DNA of 5,541 nucleotides. Origin: Actinomycetes bacterium (lineage in GTDB: Bacteria > Actinomycetota > Acidimicrobiia > UBA5794). The stretch is taken from NCBI GenBank assembly GCA_030598305.1, contig JAUVQC010000103.1:1-5541 (forward strand), in the 5' to 3' direction. Shown in pieces: positions 1-5,541 of the stretch (its first letter is position 1; each line of letters starts with the position of its first letter). A program made the position numbers and the translations under genes. The notes under the pieces were generated by a model. It made no database searches. It was not told the DNA's origin and was given only the letters and a program-made list of their open reading frames with translations.

Positions 1-48
1 CATGTTGTGCCAATAGCGTCTTCATACCCACTACATGTTGCGTGGTTG

Positions 49-81
49 CACGAGTGTAATTACATTCGTGTCACTCGTCAA
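49..81 (-). promoter_or_regulatory. Putative leftward sigma70-like promoter overlapped by a 22-bp palindrome
   Basis: On the minus strand TTGACG (81-76) and TACACT (58-53) are separated by 17 bases and match the -35 and -10 consensus at 5/6 and 4/6. Bases 49-70 form a near-perfect palindrome, CACGAGTGTAA against TTACATTCGTG, with one mismatched pair (54/65) and a perfect TGTAATTACA core. The palindrome covers the -10 and most of the spacer, where a dimeric repressor (for example of the TetR or GntR type) would block transcription. A start near 46 would give a leader of about 20 bases before the ATG at 25-23. No Shine-Dalgarno sequence is seen before that ATG. The regulator is unknown. Confidence 0.4.
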
Positions 82-181
82 CTCTTTCCGAAATCAGCCT
101 GCGAGAGACCGCTTCGGGGGAAGCTGCGTCATTTCTAGCGTTCGGGTGTGACACATTGCCACCCATGGTGCATGTCCTTTT

Positions 182-206
182 TCGCGAATCTGGCAACATT
201 TCGCGA
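182..206. repeat. Inverted repeat, 7-bp stem (TCGCGAA/TTCGCGA)
   Basis: TCGCGAA at 182-188 pairs perfectly with TTCGCGA at 200-206 around an 11-base loop. A run of five T (178-182) sits on its left, so for leftward transcription the stem would be followed by A rather than U. It therefore does not fit an intrinsic terminator for the leftward operon. It lies 21 bases from the larger repeat at 228-273. Confidence 0.6.
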
Positions 207-227
207 CCCAGACGCAAACCTGGATCA

Positions 228-273
228 TTCTGGCGTCCATACGCGCCATATACGGCCAGATTGGACGCCAGAA
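228..273. repeat. Inverted repeat, perfect 12-bp stem with 22-base loop
   Basis: TTCTGGCGTCCA (228-239) is the exact reverse complement of TGGACGCCAGAA (262-273), separated by 22 bases. It begins 14 bases past the TGA of the leftward MFS gene, where a transcript end or 3'-end stabilising hairpin would sit. No U-tract follows in the leftward direction (the next bases read TGATCC), so it is not a canonical Rho-independent terminator. It could be a U-less terminator, an mRNA-protecting hairpin, or a dispersed palindromic element. Inside it TGGCG (231-235) can pair alternatively with CGCCA (244-248). Confidence 0.65.
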
Positions 274-287
274 CGAAGGAGATGTTC

Positions 288-1703
288 TCAGGTCTTGGCT
301 CGCGTGCGCAGCGTTGCCCTGACGTCCTTGATATCGGTTGGGCACGTGTGGGCGGCCTTCCAATAGCACCAACCCGTCGGGAGGAAGAAGATCTGGAAGA
401 TCGAGAGCCCGAGCGCGAGGTTGAAAGGCGGCGGCAGTGTCCTGCTGAACACATCGGCGGTTACCGTCGTGAGCCCGGTGCCGACCGCCCTTCCGAGACC
501 GTTGACGAAGTTCCCTACGCCGAACACAGTTCCCCTGTGCTCTGGCAGATTCACATCTGAGATCAATGCGAACCAGTTGGGGGAGTCGGCCGAGGTGAGC
601 GCCAGGGCGATGAGCGCCGAGAGGAACGCGAGCGCGACCCATGGGTTCGTGACGATCGCTGTGAGGACCTCAGGGATGAACGTGGCCGTGCCCGCACCGT
701 CGGTCACTTCGAGGCCCCGAAGGGGCACCCAGAAGAAGAGGAGGAAGAACGGTATCGCTGCCACGATGCCGATGGCGGACACATATGCGCGACCCGAGAG
801 GTTCTTTCGTTGCCAGCGGTCACCGATGTGGCCAAAGAGGATGGAGAACAGGGCTCCGACGGTGAACAGCGCAGCGAAGAGTCCCCCGACCTGTTGGCCG
901 GTCGCCTGGGAGTACCCCTCTGCGATCACCTTCTCCTGATACAGCAAGGGGACCCAGATGAGTGACCCGTATGCAACCTGGGCTGTGAGTCCCTGCAGCA
1001 CGAGCCATCGATTTGTCCTGACCTCCATGAGACCCTTCAACTGGTCAACATCGATCTCGTGGTCGTACGTGCCTCCATCGGCATACAGCTCCTGAAGTTC
1101 TGGCTCGCTGTAGCCCCTCGGGGCGTCGAACGTGGTGAGGAAGAGCAGCGAGAACAGGAACCCGGCTCCCGCCAGAATGAAGAAAGGGGCGGAGTGGTTC
1201 TGAGCCCCGGCCTGGGACGCCAGAAGTGACCCGACAAGGGTTCCGATGCCCTGGCTGAGACCCCAGAACGACATCGCGAGACCACGCCGTTTCGGTGCGA
1301 CGAAGTCAGAGATGACCGAGAAGCCGACCGAAGCGATCGATCCGAGGCCGATACCGGCAATTACCTGGAGCCCGAACAGCGTCCAGTAAGAGGTGGTTAC
1401 ACCGGAGAGACCGACGGCGGCTGCCCATATGACGGTGCCCCACATGAGGAGCTTCTTGCGGTCCTGTGAGTCTGCGAGATAGCCCCATCCAACGGCTGTT
1501 ACAGCTGTGACGAGTATCTGTGCGCCGGTCAGAATCCCGATGGCGGCAGTGCTCGCTCCGAAGGTCTCCCTGAGCTGGGGCACCATCGATGGGATGAGGG
1601 CGATCGCGGCGTTGTCCAGCGACGCAAGGATCACGAACACGACGATCGTGTAGACCACGTGGCCTCGACCACCCCACCAAACGTGTGAATCGGGCGCTGT
1701 CAT
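288..1703 (-). CDS. MFS (major facilitator superfamily) transporter
   Basis: This is a 471-residue inner-membrane transporter with about 12 predicted helices, the usual MFS length. The signature motif A is at residues 74-85 (GYLADSQDRKKL), after helix 2. A degenerate copy (GHIGDRWQRK, 291-300) sits at the equivalent place in the second half. An acidic linker at about 191-232 separates the two six-helix bundles. The early DNAAIALIPSMVPQL stretch and the ISDFVAPKRRG loop (131-141) recall Spinster-like MFS members, but the substrate cannot be read from sequence. The ATG is kept because the first helix begins near residue 16. No Shine-Dalgarno precedes it; a 7-bp hairpin ends at the base before the ATG. 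A GTG at codon 16 is a less likely alternative. It is last in a leftward operon, 27 bases after the two-helix protein gene, so translation may depend on ribosomes leaving that gene. The family call is firm; the substrate and direction of transport are unknown. Confidence 0.93.
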   Translation of the reverse strand: MTAPDSHVWWGGRGHVVYTIVVFVILASLDNAAIALIPSMVPQLRETFGASTAAIGILTGAQILVTAVTAVGWGYLADSQDRKKLLMWGTVIWAAAVGLSGVTTSYWTLFGLQVIAGIGLGSIASVGFSVISDFVAPKRRGLAMSFWGLSQGIGTLVGSLLASQAGAQNHSAPFFILAGAGFLFSLLFLTTFDAPRGYSEPELQELYADGGTYDHEIDVDQLKGLMEVRTNRWLVLQGLTAQVAYGSLIWVPLLYQEKVIAEGYSQATGQQVGGLFAALFTVGALFSILFGHIGDRWQRKNLSGRAYVSAIGIVAAIPFFLLFFWVPLRGLEVTDGAGTATFIPEVLTAIVTNPWVALAFLSALIALALTSADSPNWFALISDVNLPEHRGTVFGVGNFVNGLGRAVGTGLTTVTADVFSRTLPPPFNLALGLSIFQIFFLPTGWCYWKAAHTCPTDIKDVRATLRTRAKT

Positions 1704-1721
1704 GTCTGCATCGTTGCAGAC
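1704..1721 (-). repeat. Perfect 7-bp hairpin/palindrome abutting the MFS start codon
   Basis: GTCTGCA (1704-1710) and TGCAGAC (1715-1721) are exact reverse complements around a 4-base loop. In the mRNA the stem occupies positions -1 to -18 before the MFS AUG, exactly where a ribosome would need single-stranded RNA. It may control MFS translation, with opening by ribosomes terminating at 1731, or act as a DNA operator for an internal promoter. No good internal promoter is seen. Confidence 0.55.
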
Positions 1722-1730
1722 GCCCGGTCG

Positions 1731-1994
1731 CTACTCGGTGGGTGGTGCCACCGGTGGATCAGCATCCACCACGGTGTCGTCCACGGTCTGAGCCGTGGGC
1801 TCATCGGCCTGCGGGCCCTTTCCAAAGGGAGCCCAGGCAGCGAGGATGAGTCCGAGCAGGAGTCCCAACAGCGGCAGGACCCACAGCAGGTCCGAGTGCA
1901 GTGGAATCACTCCGAAGAGGATGAGTGTGAGCCCACCGAACAGTCCGAACATGAATCCTGAGATGATGCCGAGAAATGGTCGACCCTTCATCAT
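1731..1994 (-). CDS. Small two-helix membrane protein, unknown function
   Basis: This 87-residue protein has two hydrophobic helices (about residues 8-29 and 35-56) joined by a short turn (PLHSDL). A roughly 30-residue acidic, proline-rich tail follows, ending VAPPTE. I do not recognise a named family. Its ATG overlaps the upstream stop as ATGA (1994-1991), so translation is probably coupled. An AGAAGG/AAGGTGG stretch (2005-1996) within the end of the upstream gene can serve as ribosome binding site. A second ATG follows immediately (1991-1989) and is equally well placed, which would shorten the protein by one residue. Lying between an exported anchored protein and an MFS transporter, it may be an accessory or assembly subunit. 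That is inference from position only. Confidence 0.8.
   Translation of the reverse strand: MMKGRPFLGIISGFMFGLFGGLTLILFGVIPLHSDLLWVLPLLGLLLGLILAAWAPFGKGPQADEPTAQTVDDTVVDADPPVAPPTE
1753..1770 (-). repeat. Perfect 7-bp hairpin in the 3' end of the two-helix protein gene
   Basis: GGTGGAT (1753-1759) and ATCCACC (1764-1770) pair perfectly around a 4-base loop, and a GGTGG/CCACC pair at 1741-1752 lies beside it. In the mRNA these stems fall in the codons for the acidic proline-rich tail, just upstream of the hairpin at the MFS start. Proline and valine codons in GC-rich DNA produce such pairings easily, so this may have no function. Confidence 0.4.
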
Positions 1995-2539
1995 GCCACC
2001 TTCTTCTTCATGCCGGCCCCAAGAGTCCCGATAGCGAATACGACCATGCCGGTCGCACTGATGATTGCTGCAGCTCCGGGATCACCGTCGAGCTTCATGG
2101 TCACCGCAACAGCACATGTCTGTCCCTGTTGTGTGTGCGCGGCCGAAACCTCGAGCTGCACACCACGGGGAACGAAACCCGGAACCTCATAGACATAGAC
2201 GCCACCGGCAGAGACTTCCTCGGTCGTGTCTGCCCAGCTGACAACTGCCCAGTTGAAGCGAGGAAGGCGAACTGAGACGTTCCCGGAGAAGGGGACCTCG
2301 TCATCGGGAGGTGGAAGGTTGATGCTTCCCTGATAGACCACTGAGTCTTCTTCCGGGACGGTAATGACATCGTCAAGCGGCGTGCTCTCGGTCACCTTCG
2401 TCCCATCGGAAAATTCGGCGCTTCCTGTACATCCACCCTGGAACACTTCAGCATTCGCCGGCGCGGCGAGACCGACCACCCAGAAAGATGTGATCGCTCC
2501 CAACAGCACGAGACTGGCTGTTCGTTGTCGATTTTGCAT
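1991..2539 (-). CDS. Exported protein with C-terminal membrane anchor, unknown function
   Basis: This 182-residue protein starts with a classical signal peptide: basic MQNRQR, a hydrophobic core to about residue 25, and the signal-peptidase I site ANA/EV after residue 30. A roughly 125-residue extracytoplasmic domain follows, poor in charge clusters and rich in Val, Ser and Pro, suggesting a beta-rich fold. Its only two cysteines (C37 and C142) bracket it and could form a disulphide. A single helix (about 155-176) and the basic end KKKVA then anchor it with the C-terminus in the cytoplasm. I do not recognise a named family. The frame stays open to an ATG at 2740, but the ATG at 2539 is chosen because it starts the signal peptide, has a GGAGGA ribosome site, and the longer form would run over the divergent gene. 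It is first in the operon and overlaps the next gene by ATGA. Confidence 0.85.
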   Translation of the reverse strand: MQNRQRTASLVLLGAITSFWVVGLAAPANAEVFQGGCTGSAEFSDGTKVTESTPLDDVITVPEEDSVVYQGSINLPPPDDEVPFSGNVSVRLPRFNWAVVSWADTTEEVSAGGVYVYEVPGFVPRGVQLEVSAAHTQQGQTCAVAVTMKLDGDPGAAAIISATGMVVFAIGTLGAGMKKKVA

Positions 2540-2550
2540 TGAATCCGCCT

Positions 2551-2556
2551 TCCTCC
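2551..2556 (-). promoter_or_regulatory. Ribosome binding site that fixes the 2539 start
   Basis: The minus strand reads GGAGGA 11 bases before the ATG at 2539, followed by a closer AGGCGG. This supports the short form of the exported protein over the upstream ATG at 2740. Confidence 0.7.
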
Positions 2557-2563
2557 AGACGCA

Positions 2564-2569
2564 ACCATA
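2564..2569 (-). promoter_or_regulatory. Possible -10 element for the leftward operon
   Basis: The minus strand reads TATGGT (2569-2564), fitting TAnnnT. Transcription would begin near 2557, just ahead of the GGAGGA ribosome site. No convincing -35 box lies 16-18 bases upstream, so this is a weak call. Confidence 0.3.
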
Positions 2570-2608
2570 GACCCTCAGGCCGTCCACGTCCGGGGATTTG
2601 ACCACGGC

Positions 2609-2614
2609 TAGCCT
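2609..2614 (+). promoter_or_regulatory. Predicted -10 element giving a leaderless transcript of the acyl-CoA synthetase gene
   Basis: TAGCCT occupies positions -12 to -7 relative to the ATG at 2621, the spacing typical of actinobacterial leaderless genes where transcription starts at the A of ATG. No Shine-Dalgarno sequence precedes the ATG (GCCTCCAAGC). The TAG within the motif is an in-frame stop, so no longer protein start exists. The motif lies within the palindrome GGCTAGCC (2606-2613). A TTGACC at 2598-2603 is too close to be its -35. Confidence 0.5.
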
Positions 2615-2620
2615 CCAAGC

Positions 2621-4453
2621 ATGACTCGCGGACCAGATCCTCGTCCACCAGTGTGGCTGCCGGATGAAACCACGATCGCTCACGCCAACTTGACCCACGC
2701 CATGGAGACAAGGGGCATCGACTCGTTTGCTGAGTTTCACAAGTGGTCCGTAAATGACCCTGACGGCTTCTGGTCGATGGTCATTGACGACATCGATATC
2801 AGATTCGATGTTGAGCCAACAGCGATTCGTGGGAGTGACGATGTCACTTCGCCCGAGTGGCTACCCGGCGCACGCATCAACATCGTGTCCTCATGTCTCG
2901 ACCATGATCCGGACGCGGTTGCCATCGTCTCCGCCGGACCCAGCGGATCAGAAGTGACGACTGTTGGTGAACTTTCGGTCCTCGTCGCCCGGTTCGCCGC
3001 GGGGTTTGCACGAGCAGGGTTCAGTGTCGGCGATGCCATTGCGATCGTGATGCCGATGAACAAGGAAGCTGTTGTTGCCTATCTCGGGATCATTGCCGGC
3101 GGGGGCGTGGTCGTATCGATCGCTGACTCGTTCGCCCCGGATGAGATCGCCACGCGGCTCCACATCTCTGATGCCGTCGCGGTCGTTACCCAGGTCGAAG
3201 CGGTCCGTGTGGGCAAGCGACTCCCGATGTACAGCAAGTGCGTCGAAGCAGGAGCGTCGCGATGCATCGTTGTGGGAAGCGGACCGCTGAGGGATGGCGA
3301 TACTGGCTGGGATGACTTCCTCGTGGAACACTGCGAGTTTGATCCCGTACCCCTGCCCGCATCAGCGCACACGAACATCCTGTTCTCATCGGGCACGACC
3401 GGGGACCCGAAGGCGATCCCGTGGGACCACACGACTCCGCTGAAGGCAGCCATGGATGGCCGCTATCACCACGACATCCATAGCGGCGATGTTGTTGCCT
3501 GGCCGACGAACCTTGGCTGGATGATGGGACCGTGGCTCATCTATGCCTCGCTGCTCAACGGCGCCACGATGGCCCTGTACGACGACGCTCCTACAACTCG
3601 TGGGTTCGTGGAGTTCGTGGAGGCAGCTGGCGTGACGATGCTCGGCATCGTCCCATCGATCGTGGCGACATGGCGATCGTTGGGCGTGCTGCACGCGGGC
3701 GACTGGATTTCGGTGAGAGTTCTTTCGTCCACAGGTGAAGCCTCCAACGCAGACGACTACGCGTGGCTGAGCGATGTGGCTGGGGGCATCCCCGTCATCG
3801 AATACTGCGGCGGTACCGAGATCGGTGGTGGTTACGTCACCTCGACGGTGCTGCATCCATCGATCCCTGCCTATTTCTCCACGCCTGCGCTCGGACTGGA
3901 CCTCGTACTCGTCGACGACCAAGGCATGGTCGGTGACATCGGAGAGGTGTTCCTCGTGCCACCATCGATGGGTCTGTCGGGTGAGCTCCTCAATATGGAT
4001 CACGCTGCGGTGTACTACGCAGGGGTGCCTGAGATCGGAAGGCCACTGCGACGCCACGGGGACCAGATGGAACGTGTTCGTGGTGGTTCTCTTCGTGCGC
4101 TGGGCCGCGTCGACGACACGATGAACCTTGGAGGGATCAAGGTCTCCTCCGCAGATCTCGAAGGAGCCATCAGCGACGTCGATGGTGTCACCGAGGTCGC
4201 TGCTGTCGCAGTTCCTCCTCCAGACGGTGGTCCCGACCGTCTCGTCGTCTTTGCCGTCCCGTCCCACGAGGGGTCCGACGTTGATGCGCTGCGTTCTGCA
4301 ATGCAACAGCTCGTCCGTAGCCGGTTGAACCCCCTCTTCAAAGTGCACGAGGTGGTCCTCATTGACGCGCTCCCGCGCACCGCGTCGCACAAGGTTATGC
4401 GGCGTACCCTGCGCTCTGGTTACGCGGCGAGCGAAGCCCTGAGTGGGTCGTAG
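2621..4453 (+). CDS. Acyl-CoA synthetase (AMP-forming), AAE17/AAE18-like
   Basis: This 610-residue adenylate-forming enzyme should activate a carboxylic acid with ATP to an acyl-adenylate, then transfer it to CoA, in the cytoplasm. An acetyl-CoA-synthetase-type N-terminal cap spans about residues 10-85 (FHKWSVNDPDGFW, WLPGARIN). The core carries the P-loop FSSGTTGDPKAIPW (255-268), the adenine motif YCGGTEIGGG (395-404), the ribose-binding RRHGD with Asp481, and the hinge GRVDDTMNLGGIK (495-507). The catalytic A10 lysine is K591 in TASHKVMRR. The blocks KAIPWDHTTP, WPTNLGWMMGP and GEASNADDY closely match, from memory, Arabidopsis AAE17 and AAE18. AAE18 activates 2,4-dichlorophenoxybutyrate in peroxisomes. 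The plant proteins are roughly 100 residues longer at the N-terminus. The true substrate here is unknown; acetate or acetoacetate is not assured. All catalytic motifs are intact. The start is the first ATG after an in-frame TAG. It is the first gene of a pair with the Clp1-like gene. Confidence 0.93.
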   Translation: MTRGPDPRPPVWLPDETTIAHANLTHAMETRGIDSFAEFHKWSVNDPDGFWSMVIDDIDIRFDVEPTAIRGSDDVTSPEWLPGARINIVSSCLDHDPDAVAIVSAGPSGSEVTTVGELSVLVARFAAGFARAGFSVGDAIAIVMPMNKEAVVAYLGIIAGGGVVVSIADSFAPDEIATRLHISDAVAVVTQVEAVRVGKRLPMYSKCVEAGASRCIVVGSGPLRDGDTGWDDFLVEHCEFDPVPLPASAHTNILFSSGTTGDPKAIPWDHTTPLKAAMDGRYHHDIHSGDVVAWPTNLGWMMGPWLIYASLLNGATMALYDDAPTTRGFVEFVEAAGVTMLGIVPSIVATWRSLGVLHAGDWISVRVLSSTGEASNADDYAWLSDVAGGIPVIEYCGGTEIGGGYVTSTVLHPSIPAYFSTPALGLDLVLVDDQGMVGDIGEVFLVPPSMGLSGELLNMDHAAVYYAGVPEIGRPLRRHGDQMERVRGGSLRALGRVDDTMNLGGIKVSSADLEGAISDVDGVTEVAAVAVPPPDGGPDRLVVFAVPSHEGSDVDALRSAMQQLVRSRLNPLFKVHEVVLIDALPRTASHKVMRRTLRSGYAASEALSGS

Positions 4454-4470
4454 TATCTGGGTGAGCGATC

Positions 4471-4477
4471 GAGGAGG
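4471..4477 (+). promoter_or_regulatory. Strong Shine-Dalgarno for the Clp1-like gene
   Basis: GAGGAGG lies six bases before the ATG at 4484, inside the 30-base gap after the acyl-CoA synthetase stop. It fixes the start. No terminator or promoter is visible in the gap, so the two genes are probably one transcript. Confidence 0.8.
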
Positions 4478-4483
4478 TCCCTG

Positions 4484-5371
4484 ATGGGGGGCGACGAGCC
4501 ATACGGTGCGTTGCGCGAGCGGGTCAGAGGTCTGGACGGCGTCGTCATGGTCATCGGCGATGCAGAGACGGGGAAGACGACTCTTGCCCAGATGTTGCTC
4601 CGAGACGCCGTTGAGCACGGTCGCACGGTCGCCTATGTCGATGGCGATGTCGCTGCGGCAACTGTTGGACCCATTGGATGCGTTGGACTGAAGGTCCTGT
4701 CGTCCCTTGATGATTGTGATGCTCTCAATTCGCCAGATGAGCTGAGATTTGTCGGTGCTGCCGAGCCGAACGGGGTCGTCCTTCCGCACGTTGTCGCGGT
4801 CACCGCACTCATCGACATTGCCAAGGAGCGCGCTGGCCTTGTCATCTGTGACACGACCGGGGTCGTAACGGGTGTTGTGGGACAGACACTCAAGTATCAC
4901 CTCGTCGAGCTTGCCCAGCCGGCACTCGTCATCGCGATCAGGAGGGGCGAGGAACTCGACCCGGTGATCGGCATGTTGCGGCGCTTCCTCTCGGCGCGTG
5001 TTGCCGAGGTCGATCCCCCGATCGATCTCGTGGCGGGATCGCCGCTCGACAGGCAGGACACTCGGGCTGATGCGCTCCGAGCGAACCTTGGTGAGGATCC
5101 GCCCCGGTGGCGTGTGCAAACGACTGTCTTTGCTCCGACCCTGCCCGATGGATTCGATGTCAGTCGGCTTGATGGCATGCTCGTCGGTGTCCAGGACGAG
5201 CGCGGCAGGTGTCTCGGTCTTGGTGTACTTGAACATGTCGACGGATCAGTCAAGGTCGCAACCCGGTACGGCGACGAGATGCGTGGCCTCAGGCTCGGCT
5301 CGATTCGGGTCGACCTCGACACCTTCGCGACGAGTCGCGTGCGTCTCCGCGAATTGATTTTCGGGGTCTGA
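4484..5371 (+). CDS. Clp1/Grc3-family P-loop protein, putative polynucleotide 5'-hydroxyl kinase
   Basis: This 295-residue protein resembles the Clp1/Grc3/NOL9 family, whose active members phosphorylate 5'-OH ends of RNA or DNA using ATP. Walker A is GDAETGKT (25-32). A D-x-D block, YVDGDVAAATVGPIG (51-65), follows and corresponds to the family's DxDxGQ clasp. The Walker B region is LVICDTTGVVTGVVGQTLK (119-137), a close match to archaeal members, leading into LAQPALVIAI. The C-terminal part (about 210-295) has the family's small beta domain, with LVGVQDERGRCLGLGVLE and the late GLRLGSIRVD. The length fits compact bacterial or archaeal versions lacking the N-terminal domain of eukaryotic Clp1. 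The usual Gly-Gln of the clasp is Ala57-Ala58 here, so activity is uncertain. Family members in bacteria are uncommon and poorly understood. The gene follows the acyl-CoA synthetase gene by 30 bases. The family call is good; the substrate and role are unknown. Confidence 0.82.
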   Translation: MGGDEPYGALRERVRGLDGVVMVIGDAETGKTTLAQMLLRDAVEHGRTVAYVDGDVAAATVGPIGCVGLKVLSSLDDCDALNSPDELRFVGAAEPNGVVLPHVVAVTALIDIAKERAGLVICDTTGVVTGVVGQTLKYHLVELAQPALVIAIRRGEELDPVIGMLRRFLSARVAEVDPPIDLVAGSPLDRQDTRADALRANLGEDPPRWRVQTTVFAPTLPDGFDVSRLDGMLVGVQDERGRCLGLGVLEHVDGSVKVATRYGDEMRGLRLGSIRVDLDTFATSRVRLRELIFGV

Positions 5372-5374
5372 AGC

Positions 5375-5541
5375 TCAGCTCTTGGCTCGGTCCTCGCTCA
5401 TGACCGCGAAGCCCGCATCGAGGTCGTGGACCGTCATGATCCTGCGACCGGGTTGAATGGCATCCTTGATGCCGCCGACAACGAGACCGCGAGATTTCCA
5501 CTCGAGCGCGAGGGATTCGAGGGAGCTCTCGGCTGCCACCG
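5375..5541 (-). CDS. C-terminal 54 codons of an unidentified protein (partial)
   Basis: The minus strand is open from the right edge to a TGA at 5377-5375. It encodes at least 54 residues, starting VAAESSLESLALEWKSRGL and ending MSEDRAKS. Third positions are mostly G or C, as in the neighbouring genes, and the frame ends three bases from the stop of the convergent Clp1-like gene, which fits compact real genes. The visible piece suggests a helix (ESSLESLALEW), a strand (GLVVGG) and a short polar tail. The true start lies outside the window. I do not recognise the family from this fragment. Confidence 0.6.
   Translation of the reverse strand, partial: VAAESSLESLALEWKSRGLVVGGIKDAIQPGRRIMTVHDLDAGFAVMSEDRAKS

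Follow-up and report, generated by a model that had tools for sequence, protein, structure and literature searches.

What does a Clp1-type protein do in an actinobacterial genome, and is it still a kinase? The question is raised by a gene in a 5,541-nucleotide stretch of DNA, hereafter the window (assembly GCA_030598305.1, contig JAUVQC010000103.1, positions 1 to 5,541; Actinomycetota, Acidimicrobiia). A sequence-only reading of the window had proposed a Clp1/Grc3-type polynucleotide kinase homologue with Walker A, D-x-D and DTTG blocks and a C-terminal beta domain, had called bacterial copies uncommon, and had suggested a part in the repair or processing of 5'-OH RNA ends. The explanation that we tentatively put first, with a chance just short of even, is that the gene encodes a vertically inherited P-loop protein of the Clp1 family that binds ATP or another nucleoside triphosphate (NTP) together with Mg2+, whose 5'-OH kinase activity has been weakened or lost in its clade and whose C-terminal domain makes the main contact.

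Family and fold of the Clp1-like protein

The window protein belongs to the CLP1_P homology family. CLP1_P (PF16575) was the best and sole Pfam family above its cut-off (E 2.9e-22, 79.9 bits, cut-off 26.6), and 11 further families that appeared at E <= 1, including CbiA and nSTAND3, all remained below theirs, so that no unrelated P-loop family emerged as the best match. No family in NCBIfam scored above its cut-off for this protein. All 46 members of alignment A2, the window included, matched CLP1_P at E <= 0.001, and a search of 5.8 billion proteins returned 939 homologues at E <= 0.001 among 7,996 candidates scored, indicating homology far beyond chance. PF16575 was present in all 120 homologues among the matches listed, whose names, where a source supplies one, read 'Clp1/GlmU family protein', 'polynucleotide 5'-kinase involved in rRNA processing', 'polynucleotide 5'-hydroxyl-kinase GRC3/NOL9' or hypothetical, and whose organisms, where given, were Actinomycetota and Acidimicrobiia.

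The fold was modelled from alignment A2; a single-sequence prediction was discarded (predicted local distance difference test score, pLDDT, 35.5). The predicted model has the Clp1 fold, with a P-loop domain and a C-terminal beta domain, and its residues 1-277 superpose on residues 87-422 of human Clp1, the beta domain falling within the superposed part. RecA fusion chains, which outscored Clp1 through summed P-loop repeats in several comparisons, were excluded. The protein begins 24 residues ahead of Walker A and has no eukaryotic-type N-terminal domain, and prokaryotic Clp1 members have been reported without that domain (PMC6777427). The family, the fold and the three blocks of the sequence-only reading (G25-DAET-G30-K31-T32, D53-G-D55 and D123-T-T-G) were thus all recovered.

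Kinase motifs in the window protein and its family

Saito and colleagues describe Clp1 kinases by the motifs Walker A GxxxxGK[S/T], Walker B [D/E]hhQ, clasp [T/S/L]xGW and lid RxxxxR (PMC6777427). The window protein carries the Walker A motif (G25-T32) and departs from the Walker B and clasp motifs: in hidden Markov model alignments, human DVGQ lies over D55-V-A-A58 of the window, and human TCGWV over the TTGVV of the family, with T124-T-G-V127 in the window protein. R190 and R194 form RxxxR, as in the control proteins described below, and R194 and R199 form RxxxxR; their lid role is putative.

The same positions were read in the window family, which comprises the window and 48 of 49 loci of an Acidimicrobiia set (L048 was omitted as a C-terminal fragment). 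Of the 48 rows with a letter at position 31, 47 have the lysine; D53 and D55 are kept in 48/48 and T124 in 49/49, and Gln58 is found in 7/48 and Trp127 in 0/49. Among 119 listed proteins, which partly overlap with these rows and are not an independent set, K31 and D53 occur in 117 each and D55 in 119, with neither Gln58 nor Trp127 in any. Some members of the wider family have an eroded putative lid (R190 in 39/49 rows, R194 in 30/49), and both arginines are retained in the window protein itself. Two members, L017 and L020, lack both lid arginines yet keep D-x-D.

Controls, phylum survey and phylogeny

As controls, 120 other listed CLP1_P proteins (P0121-P0240) were read, obtained with a biased probe that favours DVGQ; an organism was named for seven of them, all bacterial. 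Gly57, Gln58, R190 and R194 were each present in 120/120, lengths were 335-426 aa, and position 127 was Leu in 95 and never Trp. To lessen the probe bias, CLP1_P profile matches were surveyed in 296 genomes from the phylum of G001, the Acidimicrobiia assembly that carries locus L009. The profile scored above cut-off in 82 genomes, or 80 after removal of two with a P-loop only (G028 and G043). The 80 loci then read (L050-L129) came from 79 genomes, the split G032 being excluded, and two of them (L119 and L128) are the same genes as window-family L009 and L024. K31 and R190 were found in all 80, D53 and D55 in 79 each, R194 in 78, Gln58 in 70, Gly57 in 54 and Trp127 in none. Overall, Trp was absent from the clasp position in 168 family rows and 200 control rows. 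Since the controls lack it as well, the missing clasp Trp was dropped as a hallmark of the window clade, which is marked instead by the loss of the Walker-B Gln.

The survey also bears on the claim that bacterial copies are uncommon, which fails for this phylum sample (80/296 genomes). Bacterial Clp1 has been called 'extremely rare' on the basis of BLAST against complete genomes (14/1,543 species; PMC6777427), which does not fit our profile search of one phylum, the two methods being different. In one assembly (JAUVPA), divergent Clp1 homologues lie on different contigs (L008 and L022); the gene may be present twice, or the bin may be mixed.

A quick LG+G4 tree with the trait columns removed was built from 120 rows, namely 31 of the 49 family rows, 75 of the 80 phylum rows and 14 of the 120 control rows; L060, L126 and L129 were left out as short or odd, as were the two duplicates L119 and L128. 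The window grouped with L001 and L002 in a 20-row clade with a Shimodaira-Hasegawa-like approximate likelihood ratio test (SH-aLRT) value of 98. Gln58 is present in none of these 20 rows, and the whole tree needs at least eight Gln58 changes. Two rows (L055, L092) were flagged for long branches and eight for odd composition, none of them inside the 20-row clade, and the deep branches are unsure.

Whole-gene ratios of nonsynonymous to synonymous substitution rates (dN/dS), which are rough because many dS values are saturated, were computable in 11 of 12 pairs. Ten fell at 0.026-0.087, among them the window against L001 (0.036) and L002 (0.055), both with saturated dS; the less saturated pairs gave 0.061 (L011/L016), 0.087 (L015/L024) and, as the highest value, 0.267 (L034/L045). 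The gene is under purifying selection. Mean pairwise identity over 48 rows was 67.6% for residues 206-295 vs 54.5% for residues 18-205; the C-terminal domain is the more strongly constrained part within the window family.

Weakened or active kinase

Because Walker A and D-x-D are kept, the window protein would be expected to bind ATP or another NTP with Mg2+. Its 5'-OH kinase activity may be reduced or lost in the window clade, in the manner of yeast Clp1, a protein that binds ATP but is inactive as a kinase, and the strongly conserved C-terminal domain would make the main functional contact, with RNA or with protein. We lean towards a kinase activity that is impaired or gone while ATP can still be bound, the balance against an active kinase being nearly even.

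Several observations weigh against this preference. The window protein itself retains Walker A, D53, D55, T124, G126 and the two lid-like arginines, as one would expect if the enzyme works. What the Walker-B Gln does in bacterial enzymes is not established by the sources used. Gly57, too, varies among the phylum copies and Gln58 was lost or gained repeatedly over the tree, so the change from GQ to AA may be tolerable, and the clasp Trp, lacking in all the controls examined, is on its own no evidence of inactivity. The protein could be a fully active 5'-OH polynucleotide kinase, if the GQ-to-AA change is neutral and DTTGL/V takes the place of the Trp clasp in bacteria. We regard this as a serious though less probable possibility: the nucleotide-site residues and R190/R194 are kept, the Walker A lysine hardly varies within the family, and a different bacterial Clp1, Ts-Clp1 of Thermus scotoductus, the only bacterial one reported active in the sources used, is an active kinase (PMC6777427), but the published Walker B and clasp motifs are both lacking, and the Gln is kept in every control (with the probe bias noted above) and in most phylum copies.

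Like Ts-Clp1, the window protein has a CLP1_P domain and Walker A and no eukaryotic N-terminal domain; it differs from Ts-Clp1 in possessing a C-terminal domain and in reading DVAA and TTGV. Ts-Clp1 is about 27 kDa, its Walker B and clasp motifs are reported to be retained (PMC6777427), and it is for these reasons not a close model. Eukaryotic Clp1 (human, C. elegans) differs by having the N-terminal domain, GQ and the clasp Trp, at 15-20% identity. Yeast Clp1, which has no kinase activity and whose structure is available with ATP (2npi), belongs to the mRNA 3'-end machinery. Other CLP1_P proteins, both controls and phylum loci, share D-x-D, a DTTG-like block and the C-terminal domain with the window protein, which is however shorter than the controls and has A57-A58 where these have GQ and where phylum loci mostly keep Q58 and G57. 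Inactive eukaryotic Clp1 proteins are described as altered in the kinase motifs, above all in the clasp (PMC10598085), and a different protein, hnRNPUL1, is described as having a dead polynucleotide kinase domain that still binds nucleotide and RNA (PMC13066744). Because two published motifs are missing, we do not file the window protein as an active Clp1-type polynucleotide kinase, although it may work like one all the same. No paper treating Clp1 together with Acidimicrobiia was found in the literature searched.

Genomic context and inheritance

The features of the locus are collected in Table 1.

Table 1. Features of the Clp1 locus in the 5,541-nucleotide window.
Feature	Position	Strand	Remarks
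AMP-forming acyl-CoA ligase-like gene, upstream	2621..4453	+	30 bp gap to Clp1 gene
Ribosome-binding site GAGGAGG	4471..4477	+	Ends 6 nt 5' of ATG 4484; read from sequence
CLP1_P-family protein gene	4484..5371	+	ATG 4484, stop 5369-5371, 295 aa
Walker A, residues 25-32 (GDAETGKT)	4556..4579	+	K31 in 47/48 locus rows with a letter
D-x-D / Walker B region, residues 53-58 (DGDVAA; human Clp1 ELDVGQ)	4640..4657	+	
Clasp region, residues 124-128 (TTGVV; human Clp1 TCGWV)	4853..4867	+	
Lid-like arginines R190 and R194	5051..5065	+	
C-terminal domain, residues 206-295	5099..5368	+	Conserved above P-loop domain within family
Glyoxalase-like gene, convergent, 3' end	5375..5541	-	Window end cuts gene

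The upstream ligase-like gene, whose nearest model is acetoacetate-CoA ligase (249 bits, far below the cut-off of 639), is possibly co-transcribed with the Clp1 gene. An antisense open frame of 616 aa (3386-5236, minus strand) spans both genes and is most likely their shadow, since the plus-strand frame is the conserved one. Further upstream, positions 1991-2740 (minus strand) encode a small protein with a signal-like N-terminus, a probable start at an internal ATG near 2539 and no Pfam match; judged by eye, it is a relative of cluster 15, found in seven loci (e.g. L002, 5484-6056). No RNA family in the window reached its gathering threshold.

Counted over the window and the 49 Acidimicrobiia-set loci, many of them truncated, the recurring neighbours are mainly metabolic and mostly in constant order: glycosyltransferase (31 loci), asparaginase II and M23 peptidase (29 each), ThiS-like (26), AMP-forming ligase and RsiG-like (20 each), glyoxalase-like (19), MFS transporter (17) and class II ribonucleotide reductase (12). 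The flanks are conserved across divergent assemblies, which argues for an ordinary chromosomal gene under vertical inheritance, and this is what the Clp1-like gene looks like in uncultured Acidimicrobiia-like Actinomycetota. An origin from a mobile element was rejected, as searches found no match in plasmids (with the window protein) or phages (with the L042 protein), and none of 69 pattern matches in viral contigs (with alignment A2) was confirmed. For anti-phage defence, PADLOC gave only an unconvincing mad8 hit to P-loop residues 19-56 (E 0.0012, 16.5 bits).

A role of the Clp1-like protein in RNA repair is what one may infer, as the sequence-only reading did. Among 19 annotated representative neighbours of the window family, an annotation covering part of the neighbours, there was no toxin, RNase/nuclease, RNA ligase or other RNA-repair gene; three of the 19 had no Pfam family. 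In four of 20 distant phylum loci (L133, L134, L137 and L145), NUDIX is the next recurring upstream gene, with an aminoacyl-tRNA editing gene nearby, the only RNA-related hint among the neighbourhoods. RtcB was found in 57/80 Clp1 genomes vs 115/216 others (odds ratio 2.2, p 0.005, uncorrected for kinship; 172 positives in the comparison vs 174 above the profile cut-off), an association that points weakly to RNA repair and is too soft to use.

A gene for an S-adenosylmethionine (SAM) hydroxide adenosyltransferase was found in 10/49 loci, in eight of them within 75 bp of the Clp1 gene or overlapping it (seven divergent, one tandem). Five of these eight loci (L028, L033, L035, L042, L043, L044, L045 and L046) also have a Rex-like regulator gene. 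The adenosyltransferase is likewise present in 9 of the 20 phylum loci, which were hand-chosen out of the 80 for wide flanks, at 124-1,979 bp in the eight of nine that were measured. The adenosine released by enzymes of this kind carries a free 5'-OH. A Clp1-fold P-loop enzyme acting on a small molecule (a nucleoside or an adenosyl compound) or on some other target, and tied to nucleotide or SAM metabolism, would suit this proximity and the many other metabolic neighbours, but we consider it improbable: in the 20-row window clade the gene adjoins Clp1 only in the basal L028 (3 bp) and lies 6,139 bp off in L018, with none seen in the other loci, and common descent alone may account for the synteny, the link being perhaps one of shared ancestry only. 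More improbable still, the Actinomycetota proteins might be nucleoside-directed kinases or sensors working with the adenosyltransferase and not RNA-end repair kinases, the window clade being a kinase-altered ATP-binding scaffold with the conserved C-terminal domain as working surface. That a MinD/ParA-like protein or a signal recognition particle (SRP)-type GTPase was taken for Clp1 has virtually no probability left, as CbiA reached 19.5 bits against a cut-off of 25.4, SRP54 did not appear among the 12 families reported at E <= 1, and profile and fold, as far as these can tell, refute it.

Significance

About a quarter of the sampled phylum genomes carry Clp1, though the literature called it extremely rare in bacteria, and in one well-conserved clade a Walker-B glutamine retained by most other copies has been lost. 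The change from GQ to AA and from an intact to an eroded lid forms a natural series that could serve to test which residues the kinase needs, and whether Clp1 can be an ATP-binding scaffold outside eukaryotes.
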